Below, piece by piece: positions 19,775-44,315 of a stretch of 64,000 bases of DNA. The notes beneath the pieces were generated by a model. The model was not told where the DNA came from. It ran no database searches and worked only from the letters and a program-made list of their open reading frames with translations. The translations under genes were made by a program, and so were the position numbers. Source of the DNA: Kryptolebias marmoratus (taxonomy: Eukaryota; Chordata; Actinopteri; Cyprinodontiformes; Rivulidae). The stretch covers positions 23,856,476 through 23,920,475 of the forward strand of contig NC_051440.1 of assembly GCF_001649575.2 (NCBI RefSeq), read 5' to 3'. Position 1 is the first letter of the stretch. Each line of letters opens with the position of its first letter.

Positions 19775-19853
19775 GGCTGTGGGTCTTTGTCAGCTTTAAA
19801 TGCAGGAGAACATCTGCCGTTTCTGTCTTTTGTTGAGGAAAGTGTAGTCTCTT
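19775..19853 (-). promoter_or_regulatory. Gene A 5'UTR part of the coding exon, splice acceptor
   Basis: A pyrimidine-rich cccacag acceptor ends at 19854 and the exon begins AAGAGACT. The segment up to the ATG contains CAGATGTTCTCCTGCA, which is shared with small changes by all five intact paralogues at the same place. It indicates a non-coding upstream exon. For gene A that exon is not seen; it would lie past 22600, where the N run begins. Confidence 0.65.
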
Positions 19854-19999
19854 CTGTGGGGAAAAAGACACAAAAAGAAAAAAGAATTGATATTTTTGAC
19901 TAACATGCAGATTTCCTAAATACAACCTCCAGTCTCCATAACCTTTTGATTTCACTGTCTCTAAACAAAGAACATCTTGGCAACATTTACAAACCAAGA

Positions 20000-20591
20000 C
20001 TGCTCAGCAGAAATAGTCTGGGTTTGGCTGCTGCCAGGAGAACGGTGCTTGTCTGACTGCATTGTGTAACGTGCAAAGTTTGGTGGAGGGAGGATGATGG
20101 TGTGGGCTTGTTTTTCAGGAGTTGGCTCGGCTTAGTTCCAGTGAAAGGAACTCTTCATGTTTCAGCACAGCAAGACATTTCATGCTCCCAACTTTGTGGG
20201 ATTAGTTTGGGGATGTTCCCTTCCTGTTCCAACATGGCTGAGCACCAGAGCCCAAAGCAAGGTCCACAAAGACATGGATCAGGAAGAACCTGACCATCCT
20301 GCACAGAGTCCTGACCTCAACCCGGCAGAACACCTTTGGGATGAATTAGAGCAGAGACTGAGAGCCTTCTGTCCAACATCAGTGTCTCACAGATGAGCTT
20401 CTGGAAGAATGGTCCAAAAATTCCCATAAACTCTCCTAAACCTGTGGAAAACCTTCCCAGAAGAGCTGAAGCTGTTATAGAAGCAGAGTGGGCCAACATC
20501 AGATTAAACCCTGTGGATTAAAAATAGGATATAACACAAGTTCAAATGTTTGTGAAGGGAGGCGAGTGAATACTTTTGGCAATATAGTGTA
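20000..20591 (+). mobile_element. Truncated Tc1/mariner element (left arm)
   Basis: The plus strand encodes the end of a Tc1-type DDE transposase, including HPAQSPDLNPAEHLWDELEQ with the D of the catalytic triad region, and the element ends at an inverted terminal sequence ACTTTTGGCAATATAGTGTA (to 20591). The 5' half and its terminal repeat are missing and the frame is broken. It lies in the presumed 5'UTR intron of gene A, antisense to the gene, and was copied into the other arm. Confidence 0.85.
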
Positions 20592-22599
20592 TGTGATACA
20601 GAATTGATTTTTTTCTTTTTTTGTTGCTAAGAGCTGGACTGCAGTATGATTACTGTTCCAGTAAAGGGGACAAAGCTGGGGGACAATAATTTGCACAGCT
20701 GTGAGTCATTTCCAAGTAGTTTGTCCTTGTCTCATAAGATGTTACAAACTGAAACCTGGAGGATTTTAAAGAACAAGACAAGCACTTATGTTCATGGAAA
20801 ATAATGTCACAATACATTTGTGCTTGCATTGTCTTAACTAAAAAAAAAAATTACCCTTGTGGGTGTGGTACAGGACTGCATTTTTAAACAAATAGCTTCC
20901 ACCTCCAGTACATGTTCTCCCTGGTTGACCTCCCACTTCCACAGCCTCAGTCTAAGAAAGAGGATGGCATAAACACAATCCTGAAGACCACTATAAGTCT
21001 TTATATTGAATAAAAAAGTCCTGCGTACAACAAGATCATCTTACTATTGTGGCCAGGTTGACTCACTCCCATACTGCAAGTGATCGGCACTGTAGCGGCT
21101 AAAATGCTATATTTTACGCTACTGGTTGCTGTTCTTCCTGGTGAGCTTTGGTTGTACGTGCCCTTTGTTAAACTTGTTATGCAAATCTTCCTTGTCAGCT
21201 TATAGATCATAAAGCCATTTATTTCCTTTAAAGCACCCATTCATCTTGTCATTTTCCATCAGCACAAAATACATCCACATAAACTCTTAAATTATGCACA
21301 GTAGAAAACCGTTTGCCTCCTACCATTAGCAACACCTGAGTAGAAACACACCTGACCTTAAATAACCCATCCCAGCAATACACCAAATGAAATACACCCC
21401 TAAGAGGGGAAAAACAAACATGAAATAGATAAATGGCTTCTACAAACACGTTCCCTCAGCGCTCAGCAGTAATGATTTATAGACTTTCGGCAAAGGAAAT
21501 TTTGTTAGTCAAATATATTACTGTCTCGTTAGCCATCTAGTTCAATCTTCATTTCTGATACGATCTCAGAACACGGCGGCATGTGCGGTTTGACATTTCT
21601 ATGTTAAAGAGTTTTCAATATAGAGCTTGGACAAGAAATTGTTTCTGATGATGCTGAAAAACTGGACCATGCTTCCATCACCTGCAGACCAGACTGTTAT
21701 AATGCCGTTCTAGCTGGGTGTCCAAACCCGCTCACAGCTCTCCGAGCTGAAGACTAATTAGCAGATTTAACCTGATTCAGGTGTTTGTTTCAAAGCTGCA
21801 AACTACAGTAATTCCATGATTTTATCCTCTACTTGATCTAAAGAAAGCAACTGTGACTGACTACAGCATATACGTATAAAATTAGGTAAAACACACACAA
21901 TAAAATCCTCTTAGAGCTTAAAAGTCAATGTGAACTTGTATGTCGATCATAAGAACAGAGGAGGAATGTTTGGGTCTAACTCAGATTTAAGAAATGTCAG
22001 ATAAGTTACCTGTCCTCAGGTGTGTCCAACAGGCAGTTCTTCTAGTTCAGCCTTGAGCAATTAGAGGTTTTCAGCTCCAACAATGTGTCCTCGGGTGTCC
22101 TAAGAATCAAGTATTTGTTTGATTTAATCTTGTAAAAACATCAACAGACTATCAAGTTAAAGGGGAACAAATTATCAAATATTTAATCTGTCCTTTGAGA
22201 CAGATTAATGAGACAAAGTGTTTGCAGGTATGTTTGTTTAATTGGTTCACTGCCACTATTATGAGGTTTTACCCAGCAAGTTTAAACATGACTGTTTAAA
22301 TTACATCATTTAACTTGATGACAAATTTATTTGCATGTAATGCCTCATCTTTGAGAGATGAGGCAGTTTAGCACAGAGGGTAGGGATCTTGCTTCTTGCT
22401 GGGATCCTGCTTATATATCCAGGGGTAAAAAATAATAATAATAAAGTCATGTCGTGGAAAACAAACCTTCAGCTAAAGCAAACTGTTGAAAACATGAGGA
22501 TCTACAGGCTGACAGATTTTGGTAAACGGGAATTATTGGGTTTTTATGAAGCGCCTCAGGCTCACATGTGAGGTCAGAAATTGACAAAAAAAAAAAAAA

Positions 22600-23187
22600 N
22601 NNNNNNNNNNNNNNNNNNNNNNNNNNNNNNNNNNNNNNNNNNNNNNNNNNNNNNNNNNNNNNNNNNNNNNNNNNNNNNNNNNNNNNNNNNNNNNNNNNNN
22701 NNNNNNNNNNNNNNNNNNNNNNNNNNNNNNNNNNNNNNNNNNNNNNNNNNNNNNNNNNNNNNNNNNNNNNNNNNNNNNNNNNNNNNNNNNNNNNNNNNNN
22801 NNNNNNNNNNNNNNNNNNNNNNNNNNNNNNNNNNNNNNNNNNNNNNNNNNNNNNNNNNNNNNNNNNNNNNNNNNNNNNNNNNNNNNNNNNNNNNNNNNNN
22901 NNNNNNNNNNNNNNNNNNNNNNNNNNNNNNNNNNNNNNNNNNNNNNNNNNNNNNNNNNNNNNNNNNNNNNNNNNNNNNNNNNNNNNNNNNNNNNNNNNNN
23001 NNNNNNNNNNNNNNNNNNNNNNNNNNNNNNNNNNNNNNNNNNNNNNNNNNNNNNNNNNNNNNNNNNNNNNNNNNNNNNNNNNNNNNNNNNNNNNNNNNNN
23101 NNNNNNNNNNNNNNNNNNNNNNNNNNNNNNNNNNNNNNNNNNNNNNNNNNNNNNNNNNNNNNNNNNNNNNNNNNNNNNNNNNNNNNN
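22600..23187. other. Assembly gap (588 N)
   Basis: Unresolved bases directly after a poly(A) run at the inner end of the left inverted arm. Open frames that cross it are artefacts. True length and content are unknown; the first exon of gene A could be inside. Confidence 1.
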
Positions 23188-25594: not shown

Positions 25595-26084
25595 GGAGGC
25601 TGTGGCATTGCTCGGCACAAAGCTGGGAAAAAGAGTGAAAAAGAGCAGAAATCACTAAACACTGATCTGCTACTTCCAACAGAACTGTAATGGCTCATCT
25701 AGCTCCAAACTAAGTGTTTGTAATATATTTAAAAAATGCATAAATAAAGTATTAAATAAGACCATGAAGTCTGCTCATAAATGATCCAGCTATATGTTTT
25801 AAAACATTTAGTCTTTTTTATGTGGAAATTGTCTGATTATTTGTATAATGACATGTTTGTGTGATATTTAGTGTTTAATAGAAAAAGTTAAATGTGTTGG
25901 GGTCAGTGTAATCACTTCAGGGTCAGAGTTTAAGGAAAATCTAAGCAAGCTTTAAAAATAAAAGACCTGTTTCCCTCAAACTTTACTTTGAACCTTTACA
26001 AAAGTAAGACTTGATCATTTCAAAGCAGAAGGCCTTTCCTCTCATTAGCTACTTTAATAACATCTGCATGACTGCAGCTCTGCA
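25595..26084. other. Spacer, nothing recognised
   Basis: AT-rich sequence after the LINE poly(A) tail with no gene or repeat that I can identify. Confidence 0.35.
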
Positions 26085-26265: not shown

Positions 26266-26304
26266 ATTTAAATTAGGAACTAACATAATTAACAATAATT
26301 AATA

Positions 26305-27070
26305 GCTAATTAACACTGGCTAATACAGAAATGCTGAGAACATAGTTTTACAGATACTGAGCTAAAATTTAGTGTGGTGGTAGCTGAGAGTCATCCTAAA
26401 CACATACTAAGAGCATTACATGTTGTGCAACATATTTGTGTTAAACACAGTATGGTAAACTAAAAGCTAACATGTGAACTCATCAGACCAACACCTGACT
26501 CACGCCAGTTTACGAGCCTCAAATTGCTTCTCATTAAAAACATCAACAACATTAGCTGGAGTTATTTTTTAATGACTGTTATTATGTGAACTTTAAATTC
26601 ACAAGAAGCCGACATTTAAATTTTACAACCTCGGATAAAGATGCAACCACCAGGTGGAAGCAAAAGGTAAGAAAATCTGGAATCTTCACTCATCGAGCTG
26701 TGTGAAACTGTGTGTGCAGTGAAATGGCGTTATTGTTTAAACAGAATTTAACTACATTTTTAAAAAACAAAATGGCCAAACATAAATTTTAAAGCAAACA
26801 TTAATAAATCAGGATTTTATTTAATAAATGAACAGCTTGTTTTTGTTTTTTCATCCTTTACTTTTCTCTGTCAGTGCCTTGTCATGTCCTGGAAACAGCC
26901 TCTGAAATTAGCTGGATAATGAAATTTTATGCAGCTTTGAGTTAGGGAGAGAAAATAAAAGGTTTTCTAAAAGTAAGATGGGCAAAAAACTAATTCTTCT
27001 TTGAAGACAGTGAAGGGAAACGCAATAAAAGTTTAATAATATGTAAACACAGTTGAAGAAGAATGATCCA
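26305..27070 (+). repeat. Direct repeat, copy 1 (partner 36075-36835)
   Basis: Near-identical to 36075-36835 in the same orientation, with small deletions and a few substitutions (for example a 4-base gap near 26785). It has no coding content and contains a copy of the sequence that forms the fold-back at 26202-26265. Confidence 0.8.
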
Positions 27071-27109
27071 GTAAAAAATAACAGTCATTTAAAAATAACT
27101 CCAGCTAAT

Positions 27110-27779: not shown

Positions 27780-29958
27780 GTACAAATTTACTGTTTTTGC
27801 TTTTTCTGATTCGTTTTTGAACAAACCGATTCATCCACTTTTTCTCTCTCTGAAGTTTATTTTTTAATGTTTATTCAATTTGCCAACAAACTTTACCAAG
27901 TTCATAGAAAAAATTAAATAAATGATAACGAATTTGTACTCAGTCTTCCCCTCGCAGGACACAATTTTTTTTTTTTTTTGTCAATTTCTGACCTCACATG
28001 TGAGCCTGAGGCGCTTCATAAAAACCCAATAATTCCCGTTTACCAAAATCTGTCAGCCTGTAGATCCTCATGTTTTCAACAGTTTGCTTTAGCTGAAGGT
28101 TTGTTTTCCACGACATGACTTTATTATTATTATTTTTTACCCCTGGATATATAAGCAGGATCCCAGCAAGAAGCAAGATCCCTACCCTCTGTGCTAAACT
28201 GCCTCATCTCTCAAAGATGAGGCATTACATGCAAATAAATTTGTCATCAAGTTAAATGATGTAATTTAAACAGTCATGTTTAAACTTGCTGGATAAACAG
28301 TGAACCAAATAAAAAAATGTACCTGCAAACACTATGTCTCATTAATCTGTCTCAAAGGACAGATTAAATATTTGATAATTTGTTCCCCTTTAACTTGATA
28401 GTCTGTTGATGTTTTTACAAGATTAAATCAAACAAATACTTGATTCTTAGGACACCCGAGGACACATTGTTGGAGCTGAAAACCTCTAATTGCTCAAGGC
28501 TGAACTAGAAGAACTGCCTGTTGGACACACCTGAGGACAGGTAACTTATCTGACATTTCTTAAATCTGAGTTAGACCCAAACATTCCTCCTCTGTTCTTA
28601 TGATCGACATACAAGTTCACATTGACTTTTAAGCTCTAAGAGGATTTTATTGTGTGTGTTTTACCTAATTTTATACGTATATGCTGTAGTCAGTCACAGT
28701 TGCTTTCTTTAGATCAAGTAGAGGATAAAATCATGGAATTACTGTAGTTTGCAGCTTTGAAACAAACACCTGAATCAGGTTAAATCTGCTAATTAGTCTT
28801 CAGCTCGGAGAGCTGTGAGCGGGTTTGGACACCCAGCTAGAACGGCATTATAACAGTCTGGTCTGCAGGTGATGGAAGCATGGTCCAGTTTTTCAGCATC
28901 ATCAGAAACAATTTCTTGTCCAAGCTCTATATTGAAAACTCTTTAACATAGAAATGTCAAACCGCACATGCCGCCGTGTTCTGAGATCGTATCAGAAATG
29001 AAGATTGAACTAGATGGCTAACGAGACAGTAATATATTTGACTAACAAAATTTCCTTTGCCGAAAGTCTATAAATCATTACTGCTGAGCGCTGAGGGAAC
29101 GTGTTTGTAGAAGCCATTTATCTATTTCATGTTTGTTTTTCCCCTCTTAGGGGTGTATTTCATTTGGTGTATTGCTGGGATGGGTTATTTAAGGTCAGGT
29201 GTGTTTCTACTCAGGTGTTGCTAATGGTAGGAGGCAAACGGTTTTCTACTGTGCATAATTTAAGAGTTTATGTGGATGTATTTTGTGCTGATGGAAAATG
29301 ACAAGATGAATGGGTGCTTTAAAGGAAATAAATGGCTTTATGATCTATAAGCTGACAAGGAAGATTTGCATAACAAGTTTAACAAAGGGCACGTACAACC
29401 AAAGCTCACCAGGAAGAACAGCAACCAGTAGCGTAAAATATAGCATTTTAGCCGCTACAGTGCCGATCACTTGCAGTATGGGAGTGAGTCAACCTGGCCA
29501 CAATAGTAAGATGATCTTGTTGTACGCAGGACTTTTTTATTCAATATAAAGACTTATAGTGGTCTTCAGGATTGTGTTTATGCCATCCTCTTTCTTAGAC
29601 TGAGGCTGTGGAAGTGGGAGGTCAACCAGGGAGAACATGTACTGGAGGTGGAAGCTATTTGTTTAAAAATGCAGTCCTGTACCACACCCACAAGGGTAAT
29701 TTTTTTTTTTAGTTAAGACAATGCAAGCACAAATGTATTGTGACATTATTTTCCATGAACATAAGTGCTTGTCTTGTTCTTTAAAATCCTCCAGGTTTCA
29801 GTTTGTAACATCTTATGAGACAAGGACAAACTACTTGGAAATGACTCACAGCTGTGCAAATTATTGTCCCCCAGCTTTGTCCCCTTTACTGGAACAGTAA
29901 TCATACTGCAGTCCAGCTCTTAGCAACAAAAAAAGAAAAAAATCAATTCTGTATCACA

Positions 29959-30548
29959 TACACTATATTGCCAAAAGTATTCACTCGCCTCCCTTCACAA
30001 ACATTTGAACTTGTGTTATATCCTATTTTTAATCCACAGGGTTTAATCTGATGTTGGCCCACTCTGCTTCTATAACAGCTTCAGCTCTTCTGGGAAGGTT
30101 TTCCACAGGTTTAGGAGAGTTTATGGGAATTTTTGGACCATTCTTCCAGAAGCTCATCTGTGAGACACTGATGTTGGACAGAAGGCTCTCAGTCTCTGCT
30201 CTAATTCATCCCAAAGGTGTTCTGCCGGGTTGAGGTCAGGACTCTGTGCAGGATGGTCAGGTTCTTCCTGATCCATGTCTTTGTGGACCTTGCTTTGGGC
30301 TCTGGTGCTCAGCCATGTTGGAACAGGAAGGGAACATCCCCAAACTAATCCCACAAAGTTGGGAGCATGAAATGTCTTGCTGTGCTGAAACATGAAGAGT
30401 TCCTTTCACTGGAACTAAGCCGAGCCAACTCCTGAAAAACAAGCCCACACCATCATCCTCCCTCCACCAAACTTTGCACGTTACACAATGCAGTCAGACA
30501 AGCACCGTTCTCCTGGCAGCAGCCAAACCCAGACTATTTCTGCTGAGC
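29959..30548 (-). mobile_element. Truncated Tc1/mariner element (right arm)
   Basis: The mirror copy of the element at 20000-20591, with the same terminal TACACTATATTGCCAAAAGT and the same truncation. It lies inside the presumed 5'UTR intron of gene B, antisense to it. An identical breakpoint in both arms shows it inserted before the duplication. Confidence 0.85.
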
Positions 30549-30696
30549 AGTCTTGGTTTGTAAATGTTGCCAAGATGTTCTTTGTTTAGAGACAGTGAAA
30601 TCAAAAGGTTATGGAGACTGGAGGTTGTATTTAGGAAATCTGCATGTTAGTCAAAAATATCAATTCTTTTTTCTTTTTGTGTCTTTTTCCCCACAG

Positions 30697-30775
30697 AAGA
30701 GACTACACTTTCCTCAACAAAAGACAGAAACGGCAGATGTTCTCCTGCATTTAAAGCTGACAAAGACCCACAGCC
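30697..30775 (+). promoter_or_regulatory. Gene B 5'UTR with conserved acceptor
   Basis: tttccccacag/AAGAGACT acceptor at 30696/30697. The sequence to the ATG is the same as in gene A, including CAGATGTTCTCCTGCA. It supports splicing from the candidate first exon ending at 27779. Confidence 0.65.
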
Positions 30776-31918
30776 ATGGGTTCTAGGAGTATAATTAGCT
30801 TTAAGACCCTGATTCCCCTGATGATTCTTCAGGGAGCATCAGTGGTGCTGATCTGTAACTGGTATTATCAGTATCGTCCTTTAGATTCTGCCCAAAATGA
30901 CGGTAAAGTTCATGTTTTGCTGCTCTCGTCGTGGCGATCAGGTTCCTCCTTCATGGGTCAGGTTTTCAGCCAGCACCCGTCTGTTTTCTACCTAATGGAG
31001 CCCGCCTGGCATGTGTGGACCAAAGTGGAGAAACCTCGTGCTGGACTCCTCCGAATGGCTGTGAGAGATTTACTACGAAGTCTACTTCAGTGTGACTTCT
31101 CAGTAATGGATTCTTACTTTCCAGAAAACGCACATGTGTCCTCTTTGTTTATGTGGACTGAAAGCCGAGCTCTGTGCTCGCCTCCGGCCTGTTCCATCAC
31201 AGCGAGGAACGAGTCTCAATGCCGTCAGAAATGTGACGTTAAGGGTTTGCAGAAGGTGGAAAAGGCCTGTCAGACATACAGTCACGTGGCATTAAAAGAC
31301 GTTCGACTTTTTGAGCTGAAATCCCTTTACCCCCTTCTGCAAGACCCCAACCTGGATCTCCGCATCGTTCATCTGGTCCGCGACCCTCGGGCCGTGTTCA
31401 GGTCTAGAGAGGAGTCAGCCAAATCATTTATCTTAGATAGCTCTATTGTCTTGGAGCAGGAAGACATACCAGAAGCTGAAGTTCAGTATAAAGTCATGCA
31501 GGAAGTCTGTCATAGTCATTTGGAGATTTATGAGACGGTCATCCTGAAACCTCCTCCATTTCTTGAAGGCCGCTACAAAATGATTCGCTATGAAGACATG
31601 GCTCGCAACCCACTAAAGGAAGTCAGTGATATTTATCAGTTTGTAGGTTTAGAGATGACCAAACAGATGGAGGAATGGATCTACAAGAAGACTCACGGAA
31701 AGGGAAAAGGCACTCCGATGCAGGCTTTCCAAGTTATCCCTAGAAATGCTACCCAGGTGTCCGAGGCCTGGCGCACCATGCTGCCACACAGCAAGGTCAA
31801 ACGTGTTCAAGAAGTTTGTGGAGAAGCCATGGAGCTGCTCGGGTACAGGAGCGTTCACAGTGAAGAGGAGCAGAAGAGACTTGACTTGGATCTGCTGCTT
31901 GTACGAGAACTACGTTAG
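30776..31918 (+). CDS. Carbohydrate 6-O-sulfotransferase, CHST5/6-like (gene B, chimeric)
   Basis: Same family and predicted activity as gene A: a 380-residue type II Golgi sulfotransferase with anchor at about 10-28, SSWRSGSS at 51-58 and RIVHLVRDPRAVFRS at 196-210. All catalytic blocks are intact. Residues 1-128 are identical to gene A. From residue 129 to the end it is identical to gene E, including REESAKSFILDSSIV and KGTPMQAFQV, which A lacks. The switch falls in a 19-bp stretch shared by all three (31142-31160). It is the only plus-strand member of the cluster. The same stop (CGT TAG) as A and E ends it. Because A and E flank the conserved active-site halves, the hybrid should be functional if expressed. 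Confidence 0.93.
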   Translation: MGSRSIISFKTLIPLMILQGASVVLICNWYYQYRPLDSAQNDGKVHVLLLSSWRSGSSFMGQVFSQHPSVFYLMEPAWHVWTKVEKPRAGLLRMAVRDLLRSLLQCDFSVMDSYFPENAHVSSLFMWTESRALCSPPACSITARNESQCRQKCDVKGLQKVEKACQTYSHVALKDVRLFELKSLYPLLQDPNLDLRIVHLVRDPRAVFRSREESAKSFILDSSIVLEQEDIPEAEVQYKVMQEVCHSHLEIYETVILKPPPFLEGRYKMIRYEDMARNPLKEVSDIYQFVGLEMTKQMEEWIYKKTHGKGKGTPMQAFQVIPRNATQVSEAWRTMLPHSKVKRVQEVCGEAMELLGYRSVHSEEEQKRLDLDLLLVRELR

Positions 31919-32383
31919 TTCAGCTGGAAACCAGCTAAAACAGAGCAGATAGATCATAATTAAAGGGACATTTACACATTGTTGCTTCTAAATTGTGTAC
32001 GGATCATAGTTCAAAATAGTAATAATATGTCAGAAATTGAGAGATATGCAAAAGAAAACAAAGGCAAGAACAAATCAGCCAAGAACAAAAACAGAAGTTG
32101 CTGACAGACCGACTGAACTCTGCGTAAACGCAGCTGAACACAACCACTGTCAAAGAAGGAAGCCATGATAGCAAAGTTTCCAGCTCAAACATGAGCTCAT
32201 ATGATGATCTTTAATACGACAGAATTCCCAATAAGGCTGCTCTCACTCTGTTCATCCTGATTTTACTCAAACCCAATATTTTCAAACAGAACCTCCAGTC
32301 CCCACATCATGTCACAGTCCTGGGTCTCTGTGTTCGCTGTAAGCTGTTTTTTTATATTAATGTTTACATTTAACCACGTTTTT
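31142..32383 (+). repeat. Segment shared with gene E (inverted copy 49390-50631)
   Basis: Covers the last two thirds of the gene B coding exon and about 465 bp of 3' flank. The reverse complement at 49390-50631 gives an identical protein and an identical 62-residue shadow frame in the flank. Homology ends abruptly after 'taaccacgttttt' on both sides; at the gene E side the next bases belong to pseudogene D. Confidence 0.9.
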
Positions 32384-32799
32384 TTGTTCTTTTATTTTGA
32401 GCTCGGATTGTTTTGTTACTCAGTTTGTGCTGGTTGATGTGTCAGGGTCTCAGAGGCAGCAGAGCTGGATTCTTGGGGAAAGTACAGCGTTGCTGCTGCA
32501 AGACGCTACACGTCAGTTCGGCTTGTTCCTGTTAGAACAATGAACAATTAAACAGATGTAAACATCTGAGTAAAACTACTTCACCTTTCAAAGTTTCATC
32601 ACTTCATATATGGAGGTGCAGCTTCCATTTAATATGCCCCCCCCCCAAAAGACTCTATGTAACAAAACTGAATTATGATTTATTTCTTTGTGCCATCAGA
32701 TGCACTTTTTAACTTGAATGACAAATTATTGAAAAAAACAGAAAACAACTTTACAGATCCCGTATCAGCCATGAGTCTGCACAGAGTTTCACAGATTGT

Positions 32800-33170
32800 A
32801 TTAAGAAAAAAAACAAAAACTTTGATTTATGGCAACTGGACACCAAACGCTGTGTGTTTATAAGATTGAAATGAGGTGTGAGAGCTGCCAAACTGAAGTA
32901 TAATTTACTGCCATGTGGTCTTATTACTCCGTCTTTTAATGAAGAATTGTTTAGGGTTATTTAAGATACTGTAGCTGATATTACATTTTTGGTGTCGGAA
33001 TAACTATATAATGTTAAAAGCACTTTGGGTTGTTTTATTTAACTTTATTGTTTGAAGAAATTGCTCTTGTGACTTTGCACATGTTGTATTATTCCAGCTG
33101 TCCATGACAGGTTATTGTATTGCAGACATAAATAGGATTCTTTTAGTATTTGCCACTTTGTCTATCAATT
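32800..33170 (+). repeat. Older inverted repeat, partner about 35215-35470
   Basis: Phrases such as 'actttgatttatggcaactgg' trimmed to 'tttatggcaactgg' and 'ttgaaatgaggtgtgagag' recur as reverse complements near 35380-35450, and 'gacaggttattg' with 'aataggattctttt' pair with 35220-35250. The pairs are diverged. With 33540-34080 and 34850-35280 they form one interrupted inverted repeat centred near 34.5 kb. Confidence 0.6.
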
Positions 33171-33179
33171 CAATTACCT

Positions 33180-33494
33180 TAGCATTTTTATGTTGGCTGT
33201 TTTAGCGTGCATTGGCACTGTTAGCTAGATTTCTTCGTGCCTTAGTTTAGTAATATCATGTTTTAGTAGTTTATTTATCCTGTACCTTAGTTAGCATTGT
33301 CATGTTTTAGCTTAGTTATCTTGTACCTGCATTATCATGTTCTATAACTTTGTATTGTTGTTTAATTTAGTTTTCTCTCTTGTATTTTATCTGTAACTTT
33401 GTCTGTAATTTTGTTCTTGTGTTGTAAAGCACTTTGAGTCGCCTTGTGCTGAAAAGTGCTGTACAAATAAATGTACCTTACCTTACCTTACCTT
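33180..33494 (+). mobile_element. LINE/SINE 3' tail with ACCTT repeats
   Basis: Ends with 'aaagcactttgagtcgcctt', then 'gtgctgtacaaataaatgt' and four ACCTT-like units (about 33474-33494). This 3' tail is shared by several fish LINE/SINE families. The insert interrupts the inverted repeat module between 33170 and 33540, since its partner at 35100-35215 has no such sequence. Confidence 0.55.
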
Positions 33495-33539
33495 GAACAA
33501 TGTTTGTTTGCTTTGGTTACTGAGAAACTGTCCTCTGTA

Positions 33540-34570
33540 ATTACAGGTTTGCTTCATGCAAATGTAGAAAGTTTTTCATATGCTGATATAAAATTGTCTC
33601 ATCTTTTTCTGGTTCGACTACATTAGTATGAAACCTGAAACCTTAACCAGAGTTGAAAGCTTCACCCGATGATCCAACTGAGTCTGAATGTTTCTTTGTT
33701 TGTCTTATAGATCTACAAACATCTGGGATCATATTTACCTTTTCTAAATTCTTTATGCAGCAGCTTTTAGGCTTATTTTTACATGACTTTGCAGTTTTCT
33801 GTTAACTAATGCTTAGAAGCTTTTGATATTTTGAATAAAATGACTTTATACCTATATTTTTACTGAATCCACTTATCACTGTTTTATTATTGAGCATAAG
33901 AATCACCTTTTAGTGATTAAAGTGTTCTTCAAATAAATGTAATATTTCCGAATCATTACTTGGTGTGACTCAACTTCATTAAATTAATCTGTTAGGTTTT
34001 TTCAATTTATTTATTAATTTTTTCTATTGTTTGTAACACCTGAAATGAAGATACTTTATTAAAGGAAACATAAGCACAAGCAGAATTGAAAAGGAGAATC
34101 ATACTAGCTAAAACTAAAAAGTAACAAAAGAAATAAATAAATAAAGCAAGTTTTCTGAAGCAAATTGTAAAGAGAACAATGTTTATGAAGGAACTGAAGA
34201 GATGTCATTATTTCTAAGGGGAAAGTATTTGTAAAAACAAATAAAGGTAAAAATCTTTTCAAACATAAAAAAGGCTCAAAAACCAAAGTCATCGCAGTGA
34301 AGTAAAAATCAAAGTGCCAAACCTGTCCTGTTAAACCCGGACACGCCTGTTTATGAACGACTAAACACCACAAACATGCAGAAGTAGTTAATTAGAAAAA
34401 TGAATACGGGAACAAACAAGTGACAAAAGAAAACATCCTGTACAGTTTTGACCCGATGACGTCACATTTAGTCAATCACATACAGGCAGGACCGGTAAAA
34501 ACTGTTTTTAGCTTTTGTTACTTTTAGCCTTGAACTAGCCTTTTTTCTATTATAACTAGCATGTTGCTGC
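33540..34570 (-). repeat. Inverted copy of 23690-24800 with CHST 3'-flank module
   Basis: Carries copy 3 of the 3'-flank module (33540-34080) and the adjoining block. It lies 1.6 kb downstream of gene B in the orientation opposite to copy 1. Substitutions and small indels relative to the other copies suggest it is older than the A/B arms. Confidence 0.75.
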
Positions 34571-34849
34571 TTTTACTGTAACTTGTAGCTAACAATTTAT
34601 TACATTTGGCTTTTATTTTTTTTAATTTTTATTTATTTTTTTGTCCTGTCATGGCATTTCAGGCATACCATGTAGAGAAGATGGCTGCCTACGTGTGTCA
34701 GAACAGATTTGCTCTACAAAAAGAATATCTCAAGATGAAATCCTTTATTGAATCGAGACTGAATCTAGCGTCAGAGTAGGCAGGCCATGTTGACCCCCCA
34801 ATGACCCAGAGCTGCACCTTCCCCGGCAGAGAAACCGCCCAGCACCAAG
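34571..34849. other. Spacer between inverted modules
   Basis: AT-rich start, then a GC-richer stretch (34640-34850) without recognised features. Confidence 0.3.
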
Positions 34850-35470
34850 CTTCTAAGCATTAGTTAACAGAAAACTGCAAAGTCGTGTAAAAATAAGCCT
34901 AAAAGCTGCTGCAGAAAGAATTTAGAAAAGGTAAATATGATCCCAGATGTTTGTAGATCTATAAGACAAACAAAGAAACATTCAGACTCAGTTGGATCAA
35001 CAGGTGAAGCTTTTTCTTGTGGTTACAGTTTCAGGTTTTTTACTGCTATGTAGTAAAACCAGAAACAGATGAGGCAATTAATTTTATGTCTGCATATAAA
35101 AAAATATGTTCTACAACTTTTGCTTGAGGCAAACCTGTCATTACAGAGGACAGTTTCTTTGTCACTAAAGTAAACAAACATTGTACAAAGTGACAAAAAA
35201 AAACCCAAAAAACTAAAAGAATCCTATTTTTGTCAATGATGCCATAACCTGTCAAGTGCAGTTGGAATAATATAACATGTACAAATTCACAAGTGCGTTC
35301 AGCTAAAACTATTTCTTAAAACAATAAACACTTTTAAGATTACTTGAGTTTGGCAGCTGTCACACAACACGGCTGAACTCTCACACCTCATTTCAATCTT
35401 AGAAACATAGTATTTGGTATCCAGTTGCCATAAATCAAAGTTTTTGCTTCTTTTTTTTAATACTGCAAGT
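34850..35470 (+). repeat. CHST 3'-flank module, copy 4, and adjoining old repeat
   Basis: Copy of the module at 17990-18420 in the same orientation, most diverged of the four, followed by the partner of 32800-33170. No sulfotransferase coding exon is attached to it, so it is probably the remains of a lost gene copy. Confidence 0.65.
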
Positions 35471-35519
35471 TGAACAGTCTTTAAAACCCACTCTCTCCTT
35501 TGCTAGTGGGTGTATGCGT

Positions 35520-36010
35520 GTACTGTTAGCAAAATATCTTGTGAGCCACTGGACAGATTAGAACTAAACCTTCAGGTGGTCATCACTGGATGAACATCTA
35601 CAACCGATTGACTTTTGGAGTCATTCCCATTCAAGATGGCCGCCACAGCTAAGCGACTTCAGCAAACACGTAAATGGTTACAAATCCACCAGTTTTCCAG
35701 ACGCTGAGCTCAGATTGGATGAGGTAGTAGCTGAGACTGATCCCCAACACAAACTGATCCGTTTTAAAAACTCAACTCTGTTTGTTTGTTAGCAAAATAA
35801 CTTGTGAACTGGGAGATATTTTGGATTTAATTTAAAATCCAATAATTCAGCCAGTTTCACGGATATTGAGCTCAGATTTGATGAGGTAGTAGCTCAGAGT
35901 CATCCCCAACATTTACTCCAAGCTCCACACAAAGATCTGTACCTAAAACTGCTGTTATCAATGTTGACCCTGTTTGTGTGTTAGCAAAATAACTCACGAA
36001 CATCTGGACT
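35520..36010 (+). repeat. Dispersed fish repeat, tandem copies
   Basis: At least two copies of the repeat seen near 10970 and 27230, with 'gatggccgccacagctaag' and 'tagtagctcagagtcatcc'. Non-coding, class unknown. Confidence 0.6.
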
Positions 36011-36074
36011 GAAAGTAACAACTGGAGGTACATCTACAACTGAATCATTTTAGAGTCTTCCTGTTTCAGCTAAT

Positions 36075-36835
36075 TAACACTGGCCAATACAGAAATGCTG
36101 AGAACATAGTCAGTTTTACAGATACTGAGCTAAGATTTAGTGTGGTGGTAGCTGAGAGTCATCCTAAACACATACTAAGAGCATTACATGTTGTGCAACA
36201 TATTTGTGTTAAACACAGTATGGTAAACTAAAAGCTAACATGTGAACTCATCAGACCAACACCTGACTCACGCCAGTTTACGAGCCTCAAATTGCTTCTC
36301 ATTAAAAACATCAACAACATTAGCTGGAGTTATTTTTTAATGACTGTTATTATGTGAACTTTAAATTCACAAGAAGCCGACATTTAAATTTTACAACCTC
36401 GGATAAAGATGCAACCACCAGGTGGAAGCAAAAGGTAAGAAAATCTGGAATCTTCACTCATCGAGCTGTGTGAAACTGTGTGTGCAGTGAAATGGCGTGA
36501 TTGTTTAAACAGAATTTATCTACATTTTTAAAAAACAAAATGGCCAAACATTTTAAAGCAAACATTAATAAATCAGAATGTTATTTAATAAATGAACAGC
36601 TTGTTTTTGTTTTTTCATCCTTTACTTTTCTCTGTCAGTGCCTTGTCATGTCCTGAAAACAGCCTCTGAAATTAGCTGGATAATGAAATTTTATGCAGCT
36701 TTGAGTTAGGGAGAGAAAATAAAAGGTTTTGTAAAGGTTAGATGAGCAAAAAACTAATTCTTCTTTGAAGACAGTGAAGGGAAATGCAATAAAAGTTTAA
36801 TATGTAAACACAGTTGAAGAAGAATGATCCTGTAA
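36075..36835 (+). repeat. Direct repeat, copy 2 (partner 26305-27070)
   Basis: Same content and orientation as copy 1, preceded by the same type of dispersed repeat. The two copies are about 9.8 kb apart and bracket gene B. Confidence 0.8.
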
Positions 36836-37129
36836 AGATGAAAAATGTTTACCTCTAAAAATCTTTATCCTTACACCATAAATTTACAAAAACTGGTAAT
36901 AGTGCTGGTGATGTAGCAACCAAACTTTATTAATCCAGACTTTGAACTTAAATGCTGCGTCTCTAACATGAAAACACTGCCGTAGTGTAGTTAAAGGCGC
37001 GATCAGGAGGAACTTTCAACACTCATTCATATTTTGCATCACCGCAGCAGGTTATTGTTAAATCTGTTTTTACTCAGCCTCTCCCGTCAGCAATTATTGA
37101 AACAAATTACTCATTTGATTGGTACACTA

Positions 37130-37840
37130 AGCTGCTACTAAAGCTAAAGTTGTTACGGGTTACAAGAAGAATGTGTCAAAAAACAACCACAATAAGGTGT
37201 GCCAGCGTTCTCTCATTAGCTCCAAAGACGAGAAACGCTGTTGGCTTTCCACTGATGATAAACACCGTAACTAAAGTTGGAGTCTCTTCTCCCACTTCCA
37301 CTTCCTGGACAGTGGATTGGTCGTCGTGGGCCAGTTGAATGGCCCCCAAGGTCTCCCGATCTGACCCCCTTAGACTTTTTTCTTTGGGGTCATCTGACGG
37401 CGATTGTCTCTGCTGTGAAGATACGAGATGAAGCACCTGAAACTACAGATACTGGAAGCCTGTGCTCGCATTTCTCCTGTAGTGTTGCTGTCAGTGTGTG
37501 AAGAGTGGGAGAAGAGGGTTGCATTGACAATCCAACACTTTGAACACATTTTATAAGTGCTGAGAAACTTGTAAATAACTCATGAAAGAATAAAGTTACG
37601 TTAAAAGCAAGCACACTATTCTTTTTCTTGTGAAGTTCCCAATAAGTTTGATGTGTCACATGACCCTCTTCCTATTGAAAAAACAAAAGTTGGATCCAAA
37701 ATGGCCACCATGGTCACCACCCATCTTGAAAAGTTTCCCCCCTCCCATATACTAATGTGCCACAAACAGGAAGTTAATATCATCAACCATTCCCATGTTA
37801 TTAAGGTGTATCCATATAAAAGGCGCACCCTGTAGAACTA
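37130..37840 (+). mobile_element. Degenerate mariner-type DNA transposon
   Basis: The plus strand encodes WPPRSPDLTPLDFFLWGHL, a conserved motif near the end of mariner/IS630-type DDE transposases, followed by frame breaks. It ends near 37836 at GGCGCACCCTGTAGA, similar to terminal repeats of such elements. Non-functional. Confidence 0.65.
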
Positions 37841-37904
37841 AATATAATCCAAACATGAGCAAAGTCCTGGATCACCTTCATCAACGGTCTTAATTAAAAA
37901 AAAA

Positions 37905-38205
37905 AAAACTAGACAGTGCAGTGCCTCCCAGCCTGGGGCCTTTCTGGGTGGAGTTTGCATGTCTCTGTGCATGCATGGGTTTACTCCGGTTACTCCGGTT
38001 TCCTCCCACAGACATGCATGTTAATTAGTAACGCTAAAATTGTCCCTAGGTGTGAGTGAGCATGTGAGCATGTGAACGTTGTCCCGTCCCTGTGATGGAC
38101 TTGTCCAGGGTGTCCCCCTGCCTCTCGCACAGTGACGGCTGGAGACAGGCATCAGCTCCCTGCAACTCCGAAAGGAGAAGTGGGTAAAGAAAAGGGATGG
38201 ATAGA
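37905..38205 (+). mobile_element. tRNA-type fish SINE, degenerate
   Basis: Recognised by the series 'tttctgggtggagtttgcatg', shortened here to 'gtggagtttgcatg', then 'gcatgggtttactccggtt', 'ttcctcccacagacatgcat', 'aaattgtccctaggtgtgag', 'tgtccagggtgt' and a ggatggatag tail. This is a very common teleost short interspersed repeat. Confidence 0.75.
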
Positions 38206-39248
38206 TGTGAATCACTTAAGTAAACAGCATTTTATTAGAAAAACTCTAAACAACAGATCAGATTCTTTATGGAAGGCTTCTGTGGAAAAGCTAATATCTT
38301 ACCTGTCACTGATAGATTTATGAGTTTGAAATTTAAACTCGTTCTGATTGGATTATTGAGCTAAAGGCTAGCCCTGCCATTTTCAAAACAACTCCAAGAT
38401 CAAAACTTCTAAAGCGGTTCATGCAAACGCTATTTTATCAGTCTTTGTTCTGCCATCTGTTTCATAAAACACAAGAGTTAGATGATTCCTTGTGAATGCA
38501 GCATTTGGCCAGCCGTTAGCTTGGTCTGGACAAAGACTTCTGCTGTAGTTGAAATATGCTCTAAATAAATAATGATTAAAAAAGTGTTTCATTAAATTAG
38601 ATCTTTGTAAAGTACACATGGTAGTGCCCACACAGCAAATGAGTGATTTATGGCTTTATAGTTTAATTTATTTAATGACAACTTTGACTTTCTGGAAAAA
38701 AACAAAAAAAAAAAAAAACACCAACTTGAAAATCAGCACCATTGTCCAGGAATGAGAAGTCAGGATGTAAAAGTCTGTTAAAAGGTTTATTTTTATTGTT
38801 AGATGCTAAAAAAAACAGGAAACTGAATGTTGGGCCAGTCTGAGTGCTACATTTCCTTTGACAAATTAAAACCTTTTTCATTAGTTCGTCTGGATTTGGC
38901 ACCAAATTCGCTGGAAGGCAGGTGTGATTATCTTCACAACCGAAATATTCCATTGTCTTAGAGCTGGGAATGTAAAAATGCAGCTCTTGTGACTCTTTAT
39001 CTTGTCAGAACAGGTACAATGGGGCACATTTTTCTCTTAAGCATGTTGAAAATGGAGCTTAAAGATGGGTGTGTTGTGTCATTACATGGTTGTTTGTTTT
39101 TTTTCAACTCTTTCCTCAAGTTTGCTCATCATGTTTGTTTCAGGAACTTCTATCTTCTTGTTGTTTCTTTAAAAATACACATTGGTCTATCCATCGATCA
39201 GTCTACCTGCAGAGTAAATGGTTTGTATGAAGCCTTACAATCAAACCT
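38206..39248. other. Intergenic, nothing recognised
   Basis: AT-rich sequence between the SINE and the end of gene C. Short frames on both strands carry no recognisable motif. Confidence 0.35.
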
Positions 39249-39254
39249 TTATTT
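39249..39254 (-). terminator. Candidate poly(A) signal for gene C
   Basis: AATAAA on the minus strand about 260 nt beyond the gene C stop codon; well placed, not verified. Confidence 0.4.
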
Positions 39255-39515
39255 AATAAAATACTCTTGATCTAGAAGTCTTAAACTGAACATAAACAAA
39301 ACAACACGTAAAACAACAACAACTGTATACAAACTGAGCTTTCACACAGTGTTTAAATCTTATAAATGTACAAACAGTGTTGTGTACATGTGCCATAAAT
39401 CCATGTTTTTGTTTTGTTGCCCACATTGTAGGTCTATCAGTCAGCAAAGCCATGCACAGATTCACAGTTGATTCAGGAGGCAGATCTACAACAATGATAA
39501 AGATGTCATTCATGT

Positions 39516-40700
39516 TTACTTAAGATCTGTCTGCTTGTTTTTATCTGGCATCCAGATGAACTTATACGGTTCCTTCGGCTCCAGCAGATCTATGTCAAGT
39601 GCCTTCTGCTCTTTTATGCTGTTAACGGTCCTGTATCCGAGCAGCTCCATGGCCTCGCTGCAGACGTCCTGAACACGTTTGACCTTGTAGAACGGCAGCA
39701 TGGTGCGCCAGGCCTGAGAGACGAGTGTGGCATTTCTGGAGGTGATTTCGAAAGCCTGTTTCTTAGAGCCTTTCCCCGTCCCGTGGGTTTTCTCATAGAT
39801 CCATTCCGCCATCTCAGGGGTCATCTTTAAGCCAGCAAACTCATAAAGATCGTTGATTTCCTTTAGCGGATTGCGTGTCAGATCTTCGTAACGAATCATC
39901 TTGTAGCGGTCTTTTAGAAACAGAGGAGGATTTACAACAGCCCCATTGTTGATGCGTACATGGCTACGGCAAACTTCTTCCAGGACCTGATACTGCATCT
40001 GATATAAGGGTATTTTCTTCTGCTCCAAAACAATAGAGCTATCTAACCCTAATGCTCTGGGTGATGCCTGTCTGGACCTGAACACGGCCCGAGGGTCCCG
40101 GACCAGATGAATGATGCGGAGATCCAGGTTGGGGTCTCGTAGGAGGGGGTAAAGGGATTTCAGCTCAAATAATCGCACTTCTTTTAAAACAACATGACTG
40201 TATGTCCAACAGGCCTTCTTAGCTCTATGCAGGCCTCGAGCATCACATATGTCTTCACATTGAGAGGCGTTGCTCACGGTTAGAGGACAGGCCGGAGGCG
40301 AGCACAGAGCCCGACTTTGAGTCCACATAAACAAGGAGGACATGTTGTAGTTTTCTGGTAGATATGGATCCATAACTGAGAAGTCACACTGGAACACACC
40401 TCGCAGTAAATCCCTGACAGCTTTTCGGAGGAGCCCGGCACCGGGTTTCTCCACTTTGGTCCACACATGCCATGCGGGCTCCATTAGGTAGAAAACAGAC
40501 GGGTGCTGGCTGAAAACCTGACCCAGGAAGGAGGAACCTGATCGCCATGACGAGAGCAGCAAAACGTGAACTTTACGTTGAGGGACAGATTCGGAGGGAC
40601 TCAGCTGAATGTGCAAGCTGAGGAAAAGCACCACTGCTGTCCCCTGCAGGAACACCAGAAAAATCACAGTCTTGAGGGTAACTCTGTAGTAGCGCCCCAT
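39516..40700 (-). CDS. Carbohydrate 6-O-sulfotransferase, CHST5/6-like (gene C, full tail)
   Basis: A 394-residue type II Golgi sulfotransferase. Anchor at about 10-30, SSWRSGSS at 50-57, RIIHLVRDPRAVFRS for the 3'-phosphate site, RALCSPPAC and FLKDRYKMIRYEDLTRNPL. Among the five it is the most divergent and probably closest to the ancestral form. Its C-terminus continues past the point where A, B and E stop, with KFIWMPDKNKQ, comparable to the HFSW-type tail I recall for mammalian CHST5/6. Length matches the mammalian enzymes. The start ATG follows the same 5'UTR signature as the other copies. Substrate preference (GlcNAc or Gal) cannot be told from sequence alone. Confidence 0.94.
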   Translation of the reverse strand: MGRYYRVTLKTVIFLVFLQGTAVVLFLSLHIQLSPSESVPQRKVHVLLLSSWRSGSSFLGQVFSQHPSVFYLMEPAWHVWTKVEKPGAGLLRKAVRDLLRGVFQCDFSVMDPYLPENYNMSSLFMWTQSRALCSPPACPLTVSNASQCEDICDARGLHRAKKACWTYSHVVLKEVRLFELKSLYPLLRDPNLDLRIIHLVRDPRAVFRSRQASPRALGLDSSIVLEQKKIPLYQMQYQVLEEVCRSHVRINNGAVVNPPLFLKDRYKMIRYEDLTRNPLKEINDLYEFAGLKMTPEMAEWIYEKTHGTGKGSKKQAFEITSRNATLVSQAWRTMLPFYKVKRVQDVCSEAMELLGYRTVNSIKEQKALDIDLLEPKEPYKFIWMPDKNKQTDLK

Positions 40701-40790
40701 GTTTATGTTTCTCTGTCAGCTTCTAGTGCAGGAGAATATCTGCTTTTGTTTGTCCTCTGTTGAGCAGGGTCCAGTCTCTTCTGCAAAAAA
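40701..40790 (-). promoter_or_regulatory. Gene C 5'UTR with conserved acceptor
   Basis: ttttttttgcag/AAGAGACT at 40791/40790, then CAGATATTCTCCTGCACTAG before the ATG. This is the shared paralogue signature of a spliced 5'UTR. Confidence 0.65.
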
Positions 40791-40914
40791 AAAGAAGACA
40801 AGTGAGATATTGAACCATTAGACCAATAGGCATGTTTCCTCAATCCAAAATTTTCTTTACAAATCATCTGACAGATAAACAAAGCATTCCTATTTCTTTT
40901 ATTATATTCTTTTA

Positions 40915-41215
40915 TATAGCTCTCGGAGTATAAGTTGGGGATGGCTTTCAGCTACAGCTACACCAAATTCTAAGTAAATATCTGTAAAACGGACTGAGTT
41001 ACAGCCCCTGTAGTGTTTGCTATGATTGATTTAAATCTATGCAATTAGACTGACTCCAAAAGTTATTCAGTTATAGATGTGAACCCAGTGATTACTTTCT
41101 GAAAGTTTAATTAAAATTCATCCAGTGGTTTATCAGATATTTTGCTAATGGTACAGACAAACGGACACACAAAAAGCAAAAACATCATCTTTTCTCCTTT
41201 GGCAGCAGGTGATTC
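40915..41215 (-). repeat. Dispersed fish repeat
   Basis: A minus-oriented copy of the repeat at 35520-36010 ('gactccaaaagttattcagtt', here cut to 'ctccaaaagttattcagtt', and 'gatattttgctaatgg'). It lies in the presumed 5'UTR intron of gene C. Confidence 0.5.
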
Positions 41216-43855
41216 GGTGACCTGTAAAGGTATAAATTTGTAACACTTGAATAAAGGTAACGTCTTTTTGTTACGAGCAGCTTGAGTCAGCTACAAAGTG
41301 TGTTCACAGGTGAGAACTATTATAGACTAAATGGAAACCCTTTCATTCAAACAGATTTAATCCTAGAAACTGGTTCAGGAGATTTACTTAAGTGTATTGT
41401 ATGCAACACCCTGTACTTTGCCGAGTATGTTGTTTATTTTAACCACCTACTGATTAGAAACAACAATGAAAACTAAATATACAACATAAATTTGCTATGT
41501 GTGTTCATATAATATCATCCCTTCTTGTACAGTTGCCTTAATTTTTTTATGACCACACTGTTGTTCACCAAGTTTGAAGCTCCTTTCATCAAGTTTGTAA
41601 TAGTTCGTTTGTGAATCACTTTGTTGGTAGAAAAGTACATTTTGTTATAGTCAGATTGTTACCTTTGCAAAGGTTTATGGCTTAAACTAAAGGAATGAAC
41701 AAATGAGTCTTTGAAACAAACTAAAAATAAAATGCTAGCTTTTTTTCACCAAGTTAAGAGAATCTTCTTGTCACTTCCAGTGGTACGTCTGAAAGATAGC
41801 TGAGAAACATTAACGTAGAGGGACCAAAAAGAAGTCATCACTTTAACACAGTGCTTCCCAAAGGTGGGCTCAGGGCCCCATGTGGGCCATGAAACATCCT
41901 CAGAGGGTCTCCATATATCAGAATAAATGTAAAATGATTACTCATGGAGTATTTTTAAGCATAAATACCATAGTCATGCATATAGTATTATTTTAGTATT
42001 GTATTATTAGTAGTAGTTGTGGCAGTTTTTGTTGTTATTATGTTTAATAGGACTATTAGCAATGTTGTAATACTTAAAATCATAAAATTTGGGATTACAA
42101 GCTGGTGCCATTGTTGTTTTGTAGGTCAGAACCTGAAAGGTTGGGGAATTGCTGCTTTAACAGACTGATAAAGCCGATGTCACATTTATAAAAGGAACTA
42201 AAACATCGTTGGACTTGTTTGAATCTGTTCACGTCATATTGGAAATTTCCCTCCTTGCTTTGTTTCATCAGTAGTGACATCAAACACCTGACAGACCAGT
42301 TCCGCGTCATTAGTCCTCTTACTGTATGTTCCTGCTTTTAATTGCACCGGACTCGTCACAAACTAGTCAAACTGCATTTTATTTCAGTCTTAGGTTTGTT
42401 TTTAGGTTGTGTCATGTAAGCTGTTGACTGCCTCATACAGAGTGTTTTTGTGTTATCGCTGAGTTTATGGCATTTATTTTGTTACAAATCACTAATTTAA
42501 TCAACTTGAACTACCTCTAGTACTTTAGATCAGCTTTAGTGTGGTAATTATTAATAAAAATTGTGCTTTTTTCAAACAATCCATGCATTTTTTGTCCTTT
42601 AAACCACAAATATTTTGACCTCCAACACTGGATCTGCACATACTCAAGAACTAATGATGAGAAACCAAAACCCTTTATGATTCTGTCTTAGTTAATAAGT
42701 GTGAGCCATCAACATTAATTGTGCAATCTGTAAGAATATGTGCCGCCATCTTGGGAAGCCCTTCAGGTAGCAACATAGGCGTCCTTTTATACTGCCAGAA
42801 TGGAGTATACAAGGACCATAAAACCTAAACTCAGCAAATTAATGCAATGTTTTGCTCTTAACTGTTATCAGTATTGGAGCTGGCGCTTCAAAGAACATGT
42901 TTCATCTGTAATTATTACGCCATATTAGCTCATAAATCATTGACCTTTTCAGTTTAATGTCAGTCTTGTCCATTGTTTATACTAACAGAAAATACTTCAT
43001 ACTTAAAGTAAACATATCTGTGCCAGTTTATTCAGATTCAACACCAGAATCAAGTGGGACAAAAAAATTGTAGTGAACTGACAGGCGCAGTGATGTGACA
43101 TGTTTCTTATTTTTATGCATGTTTGTCAAACTTAAATTTAAATATTAGACAAAGATAATACAAAATGCAGTTATGAAACAAAGGTCTTTATCATTAAGGG
43201 CGTGGATGAATCTAAACTACATGTTCCTGTGTGGAAAACTGATTGTCCATCCTCAGCAGCAACAACTGCAATCAACCGTTTGCGATAATTGGCAATGAGT
43301 TTTTTTACAGACCTGAGGAGGAATTATATATGTAAACTGACCACCCCTTTTATTTGAGGAAACTATAGTTTTAAGCAAAAATAAAAACTAGAAAGCACAG
43401 TTTCCTCAAATAATTGGGAAGGCTCCATCCGTTCGCCAGGATTCATCATTCTGCGCCACTTCGGACAGCAAATCATCCCTACAGTGAGGTAAATATTGTC
43501 ACGTTTCATGGATGGTTTGAAGTTATTTACAAAAACAAACAAAAACAAAATCCAGGATTGCAAAGACACGAGGGAACCCAGACAGCACATGGAAGTGAGG
43601 AAGATGACCGGGTTTTAAAGGCTGAAGATCACGACTGACTGATTAGTAACGCAGGACAGGTATGGGTGGCAGCGGCAGGCTGAGGAGTAACGAGCAGAGA
43701 AAAAGTAAATAATGAGGAGCCAAAACTATACAAAGACAAAACTAAACATGAAGACAACCAAATAACTAAATAAAAGAAACAATAAACCCAATACAAAAAC
43801 AAACCCAAAGACACCCAGATCACAAGAAATATATTTTCCCTCCAAATTTGTATAA
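41216..43855. other. Presumed gene C intron, nothing recognised
   Basis: AT-rich sequence. A stretch near 41850-41930 ('cttcccaaaggtgggctc') resembles the ends of common fish DNA transposons but is too degraded to classify. Confidence 0.35.
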
Positions 43856-44315
43856 GGGCCTTTTGGCTCAGGGCTAGGGTAAGGGTCTCCTCAGGGTTGA
43901 AGAGGTTAGGGCCTTCTGGCCCAGGGCTAGGGTAAGGGTCCCCTCAGGGTTTATGGGGTTAGGGCCTTCTGGCCCAGGGCTAGGGTAAGGGTCTCCTCAG
44001 GGTTGAAGAGGTTAGGGCCTTTTGGCTCTGGGCTAGGGTTAGGGTCTCCTCAGGGCTTGAGGCGTTAGGGACTTTTTTGCCCTGGGCTAGGGTTAGGGTC
44101 TCCTCGGGGTTTGAGGGGTTAGGGCCTTTTGGCCCAGGGCTAGGGTTAGGGTCTCTGGGTTGAAGGGGTTAGGGACTTTTGGCCCTGGGCTAGGGTTAGG
44201 GTCTCCTCTTGGATTGAGGGGCTAGGGCCTTTTGGCTCAGGGCTAGGGTCTCCTCAGGGTTTATGGGGTTAGGGCCTTTTGGCCCAGGGCTAGGGTTAGG
44301 GTCTCCTCAGGGTTT
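43856..44315 (+). repeat. G-rich minisatellite, ~9 units of ~53 bp with telomere-like words
   Basis: Nine degenerate units (47-54 bp) of a 'ttagggccttttggccc' - 'agggctagggttaggg' - 'tctcctcagggtt' pattern. Most units hold CTAGGGT(T/A)AGGG, close to the vertebrate telomere hexamer. Closely spaced GGG runs on the plus strand could form G-quadruplexes. It lies in the presumed 5'UTR intron of gene C. Confidence 0.9.

Follow-up and report, generated by a model that had tools for sequence, protein, structure and literature searches.

The sulfotransferase paralogues in the window (the whole 64,000-nt stretch of DNA that we analysed) appear to have overwritten one another by interlocus gene conversion, and two recent events of this kind would give the pattern described below, an explanation to which we attach somewhat better than an even chance. 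The locus is a cluster of CHST5/6-like sulfotransferase genes of the self-fertilising fish Kryptolebias marmoratus. Five intact genes and one orphan piece are present in the window: gene A (18632-19774, minus strand, 380 aa, open frame), gene B (30776-31918, plus strand, a CHST5/6-like sulfotransferase of 380 aa, open frame), gene C (39516-40700, minus strand, 394 aa), a more distant paralogue that served as reference, gene E (49855-50997, minus strand, 380 aa), with a 5′ half of its own that is F-like from codon 41 and a 3′ half of B type, gene F (55660-56787, minus strand, 375 aa), and D (49054-49388, minus strand), a 335-bp piece of coding sequence that covers codons about 233-343 and has no internal stop. 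The coding sequences of A and B are separated by 11.0 kb and those of B and E by 17.9 kb. A sixth gene of the cluster, H, lies 4 kb outside the window (L009:3974-5173). A search of the whole assembly, in which 40 of 108 candidates were scored, placed all gene-length matches within the cluster and found nothing outside it beyond 32-37 bp matches near the start of the query. Protein B is P0001 and gene H is P0012, named CHST6-like, Kryptolebias marmoratus, by NCBI. Among the best 120 relatives, those named by NCBI are mostly CHST5, CHST6 or -like proteins of killifishes and other teleosts, with a few hypothetical or unnamed.

Gene B changes its affinity once along its length. It is identical to A, in inverted orientation, over 28335-31160 (2826 bp) and identical to E, again in inverted orientation, over 31142-32383 (1242 bp), and the 19 bp by which the two exact blocks overlap (31142-31160, plus strand, codons 123-129) mark the interval in which A-like sequence gives way to E-like sequence. 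The tables of informative sites put the last A-like site at 31141 and the first E-like sites at 31161 and 31165. The two kinds of site are not spread uniformly along B: the 124 sites of its coding sequence that distinguish A from E fall into 82 A-like sites followed by 42 E-like ones (29 and 42, respectively, from codon 41 on); the order holds throughout, and private sites are absent from B. If sites were exchangeable, such an ordered run would have a chance of 4.4e-34; third positions taken alone give 32 A-like sites and then 18 E-like ones (P = 5.5e-14). The identity with E continues for 465 bp past the stop codon (31919-32383), and the whole tract, called R here (31142-32383, plus strand, in B), comprises the 3′ half of the coding sequence and this flank. 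Within it, 233 bp (31720-31952, plus strand) are identical in A, B and E, which we take as a shared conversion tract, so that the description of B as following E and not A is inapplicable to the end of the gene.

The earlier note had described B as a chimera of A and E, with a 19-bp junction, identity to A upstream of it and identity to E downstream through the stop codon and 465 bp of flank. The junction is present in the assembly and is clean, the coordinates, flank and orientations were all re-found, and the view that a nonreciprocal recombination between linked inverted paralogues is recorded here is upheld. The idea that B obtained its 3′ end from E was not supported, the evidence favouring the transfer of this end from B to E. 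The term chimera is thus apt in that the switch is real and the 5′ half matches A, but on the E side the copying is likely to have gone the other way.

The case for this direction comes from gene E and fragment D. Across 30896-31141 (B numbering), 26 of the 29 sites in E that are informative between F and B are F-like, the B-like ones being at 30898, 30982 and 31082, and after 31141 all 77 are B-like, the first of them at 31186. The change from F-like to B-like sequence in E falls at 50588-50631 (31142-31185 in B), and tract R occupies 49390-50631 of the minus strand. D starts 1 bp past the end of the B/E identity, on the strand of E, in frame and without a stop; the join of R, which ends inside a repeat, to D is at 49388-49390 (minus strand), where the one base in between fits neither side. 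Identity to F is 97.8% for codons 233-292 of D and 97.6% for codons 41-122 of E, and 86.0% for codons 233-292 of E. Since D and codons 41-122 of E are similarly F-like and codons 233-292 of E reach only 86.0%, we read D as the original continuation of E, left stranded as the rest of the old gene. The evidence thus favours a history in which the N-terminal half of E and D were once one gene, between the parts of which the tract was later inserted.

The affinity of D is not uniform. In its last third (codons 293-343) identity to C (85.3%) exceeds that to F (82.1%), and a tree of codons 233-292 gives the placement of D near F a support of 46-50. Among 124 fetched proteins, with the Kryptolebias marmoratus rows P0001-P0003 dropped, P0009 of Nematolebias whitei is the top non-Kryptolebias match for residues 1-43 and 1-122 of E and for the whole of D. 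The same protein is the top non-Kryptolebias match for E as a whole too, its lead for D is small (83.6 vs 81.1%), and the parts of D taken alone have other best matches, namely Austrofundulus P0006 for D 1-59 and gene C for D 60-111.

The 3′ flank of B provides a second line of evidence. From about 31938 to 32690 it matches a dispersed repeat, of which E has a part up to 32383 only. In all, about 780 bp are extra in B between the stop codon and its own old flank; relative to A, the extra stretch spans 31965-32742 (plus strand), with a right limit that rests on a weak 41-bp match. Beyond it lies a paralogous flank (32743-32996, plus strand) that is homologous to the 3′ flanks of A and C: B 32807-32886 matches C 39418-39337 at 76%, B 32917-32996 matches A 18509-18436 at 75%, and B 32743-32783 matches A 18564-18524 weakly (71%, E 0.019), the flank comparison placing the homologous stretches of A within 18436-18564 (minus strand). 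The best flank scores against B are 54.0 bits for A and 59.7 bits for C, compared with shuffle maxima of 31.1 and 28.3 (200 shuffles each). Further out, a 600-bp stretch (A 18321-17725 vs B 33498-34075) is 91% identical and represents a repeat with further copies in the window, so not all of the flank is 25% diverged.

The repeat in the flank of B has 26 matches in the genome, comprising B itself, E, a local relative at 35378-35463 and 23 elsewhere, and its continuity was checked in 12 fetched places that cover 13 of these 23. Both sides of 32383 are matched, on the same strand and in the same order, in four of the 12 places; in these four there is no match to B 32271-32442, and the two sides are further apart than in B. 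The left side alone is matched in seven places. One place (L021, C5) spans 32383, at 69% identity with 22 gap columns in 140. By these matches, with continuity seen directly in that one place, B across 32383 looks like the interior of the repeat and E like a copy cut there. Given that D can be read as the remainder of E, and that the flank of B lies inside the dispersed repeat and then passes into homologues of the A and C flanks, the 3′ half of B and 465 bp of flank were probably copied into E, with end joining at the far end; the end of the B/E identity at D could alternatively reflect a later deletion of E's flank. The tract in E has homology at one end (31142-31185) and none that we could see at the other (32383/49390), and for this reason we class it as a non-canonically terminated conversion. 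E is better seen as the recipient of the 3′ end of B, and the 5′ half of B as shared with A.

The identity of A and B reaches 27966, 2.8 kb upstream of the start codon. The arm on the B side (27966-31160, plus strand) equals A except in a patch at 28293-28334; the arm on the A side (19390-22599, minus strand) terminates in a poly-A run at an assembly gap (22600-23187). All differences between the arms, six substitutions and a 15-bp indel, fall in these 42 bp (28293-28334 in B, 22216-22272 in A), which are either a local patch or an assembly slip. While the 5′ arms are 100% identical outside the patch, the cluster-specific 3′ flank stretches of A and B are 71-75% identical, and on this ground the two genes look like an old inverted pair, with arms that were recently exchanged. 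For the same reason, we set aside the idea that B originated from A by a recent inverted duplication. Leaving the patch aside, the 3134 bp of arm show no difference, nor does the B/E tract; provided that identity was not imposed by the assembler, this corresponds by a Poisson bound to a divergence below about 0.1% for the arm and below about 0.25% for the tract. The inverted repeat pairs 27966-31160/19390-22599 (near-perfect) and 31142-32383/49390-50631 (perfect) overlap within B and can be expected to promote inversion of the intervening DNA.

From these observations we infer a break, end joining, a direction of copying and an order of events as follows. The first event would have begun with a break in the original E gene, for the repair of which the inverted paralogue B would have served as template. 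The 5′ end of E would have invaded B near codons 123-137, and synthesis would have copied the 3′ half of B, its stop codon and 465 bp of flank, running into the repeat there. The new end would then have been joined directly to codon 233 of E, because homology to the other broken end was exhausted. The outcome would be an E frame that stays open with the C-terminal part of B, the rest of the old gene being left as fragment D. In the second event, the 5′ half of the coding sequence and at least 2.8 kb upstream would have been made identical between A and B, with one end of this tract at 31142-31160.

Two other histories are unlikely but deserve weighing. According to one of them, B was built from A in its 5′ part and from E in its 3′ part, the copying from E having run past 32383 before a deletion fused E to the neighbouring D. 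A single breakpoint at 31142-31160 would then both end the identity with A and start that with E, in keeping with the lack of private sites in B; however, the additional deletion would have to end exactly at D, the equal F-likeness of D and the 5′ half of E would be left to chance, and it is B that has the paralogous 3′ flank and the larger share of the repeat. According to the other, which we consider just as improbable, B is no hybrid but an unchanged donor, from which sequence was copied over the 5′ half of A with its upstream region and, in a separate event, over the 3′ half of E. It shares the first event with our preferred explanation, and the chances given to the two overlap. The paralogous flank and the fuller repeat in B agree with such a donor, as does the presence in both A and E of a portion unlike B, but two independent tracts would need boundaries that fall together in 44 bp (31142-31160 and 31142-31185). 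No marker that would independently give the direction between the A and B arms was found. Copying from A to B is slightly favoured over copying from B to A because it explains the coincidence of both boundaries: if A overwrote B after the event in E, one boundary serves both, whereas if B gave to A, the two boundaries came to lie within 44 bp by chance.

More doubtful still is an assembly artefact, by which near-identical copies were collapsed or cross-joined and the identities, the order of the genes or the inverted placement of B would be unreal. The main doubt is that the assembly probably derives from short reads, in which case the exact repeats of 2826 and 1242 bp would be longer than a read. 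An overlap of 19 bp, such as that at the junction in B, would be too short for the usual join in an assembly graph, which speaks against the artefact, whereas the poly-A run in which the A arm meets the gap speaks for it. The other repeat pairs of the window were kept apart at 89-97% identity, and UniRef entries of Kryptolebias marmoratus hold most of A (P0002, identical over 343 residues) and of F (P0003, over 347), although these may go back to a previous release of the same data. The B/E repeat of 1242 bp is inverted, so a misassembly across it would invert 32384-49389 and swap the roles of B and E together with the direction of copying; the F-likeness of both the 5′ half of E and D supports the assembly as it stands. 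As described in PMC5223126, a Kryptolebias marmoratus assembly of 680,349,455 bp (LWHD01) was produced from Illumina reads with ALLPATHS-LG, which adds to the suspicion, and from an isogenic strain, which makes a false allelic duplication unlikely. The assembly searched here has 680,653,423 bp. For GCF_001649575.2, PMC12763893 gives 300 scaffolds and a contig N50 of 61,321, a value that also leaves room for an artefact, and both PMC13283775 and PMC12763893 credit this version to Kelley et al. 2016.

A single replication-based template switch that carried the upstream region and 5′ half of A and then the 3′ half of E into the place of B is very improbable: the two parts of B are alike in showing no differences, and switching between homologous templates is documented in PMC5104497, but the old paralogous 3′ flank in B indicates a gene already in that place, and D would go unexplained. 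Two further routes were rejected, namely unequal crossing-over between A and E, which share one orientation, so that a hybrid of the two would have it too, B being inverted, and a reciprocal inversion between B and E, which would swap the halves and from which two identical copies are not expected.

The sulfotransferase family as a whole is mosaic. Synonymous divergence between A and E in six successive segments is 0.90, 0.33, 0.13, 0.27, 0 and 0. In a permutation analysis of 397 variable columns in A, C, E, F and H (2000 permutations, at most the three longest runs per pair), in which P values are per pair, are uncorrected for the 10 pairs and have a floor of 0.0005, this floor was reached by the A-E runs 31166-31270, 31540-31688 and 31720-31918 and by the run 31721-31824 in both A-F and E-F; weaker runs (P 0.004-0.032) were obtained for C-F, C-H, E-F and F-H. 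These runs indicate that conversion among A, E and F extends past the single junction in B. Identity between C and H is 94.3% in codons 41-122 and 71-81% in the segments that follow (30896-31194 and L009), and the former segment may be a further conversion tract or reflect mere constraint. The identity of C and H also falls at about 31151-31194, and a breakpoint hotspot near codons 123-137 was considered and discounted because the codons that follow look variable.

Members of the CHST5/6 family sulfate the C6 position of GlcNAc in keratan sulfate or mucin sugars. All five genes of the window score above the cut-off for Pfam Sulfotransfer_1 (PF00685), B with an E value of 1.3e-18. The earlier note's statement that the frame of B is intact, with both cofactor motifs, is borne out: the PAPS-binding stretches are SSWRSGS (residues 51-57), on the A-like side, and RDPRAVFRS (residues 202-210), on the E-like side. 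In human CHST6 these stretches are residues 49-55 and 202-210 (PMC6382428). Residues S51-S58, R202-R205, V207 and S210 are invariant among 42 aligned sequences and thus common to A, B and E, so that B has no new combination of motifs. At the protein level, B shares 94% identity with A and 91% with E. A protein model of B (mean pLDDT 67.2) has a helix at residues 9-33, a candidate N-terminal membrane anchor, and places the switch point in a loop (residues 116-143) with pLDDT below 50; as a prediction it is too weak for a functional reading. Among the 50 matches listed in a Foldseek search of the PDB were general PAPS-dependent sulfotransferases (query TM 0.31-0.43), and a sequence search at E 0.001 matched no solved structure.

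In human macular corneal dystrophy, rearrangements at CHST5/CHST6 arise by homologous recombination. That system, in so far as PMC2695576 and PMC6382428 describe it, involves the same family and deletions or rearrangements between or upstream of the copies, as here; it differs in that the changes described are upstream of CHST6 and involve no hybrid coding region. Another parallel is the interlocus conversion described for Caenorhabditis (PMC3966223), which likewise includes nonreciprocal copying between neighbouring paralogues, also inverted ones, and long identical runs beside divergent parts, whereas here one tract adds 465 bp of flank and has a 3′ end without homology. The type of join between E and D resembles the non-canonical termination of recombination in long-tract gene conversion, in which rejoining is described as involving microhomology or nucleotide addition (PMC5104497). 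That work concerns an induced break in mouse cells with the sister chromatid as template; ours is an evolutionary trace between paralogues.

The case clearly illustrates a process that is already known, gene conversion, and its mechanism is not new; no report of it was found in the literature searched, which covered few subscription papers. It offers a fresh conversion trace with a non-homologous end in a nearly isogenic vertebrate, and D and the interrupted repeat suggest the direction of copying, which is usually missing from such traces. Because the halves of the genes differ in history, whole-gene trees and orthology calls for the CHST5/6-like genes of killifishes may mislead, and this part of the assembly calls for long-read caution. 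A far broader proposal, which we regard as speculative and rather improbable, is that in a selfing vertebrate linked inverted paralogues are the main source of new combinations, through end-joined break repair that transplants catalytic ends. If this were so, a whole catalytic end, with its stop codon and a repeat-bearing 3′ flank, would have moved between genes in a selfer in which allelic exchange does little, and the stranded end of the original gene would be a fossil that tells the direction. The perfect inverted repeats left over would make swaps and inversions likely, and strains should therefore differ in the hybrid that they carry.

Some other features of the window were also recorded. 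Between A and B, in the orientation of B, a scrap of 57 bp (25634-25690, plus strand) matches the terminal 57 bp of F at 84% identity and is taken as the remains of another copy. A direct repeat of about 770 bp flanks B (26304-27075 and 36068-36836; 97% identical, with one 300-bp part at 100%). A short interspersed repeat at 33161-33495 has, among the matches listed, many copies on many contigs at 84-96%, and self-comparison revealed tandemly repeated units of about 53 bp at 43855-44315.
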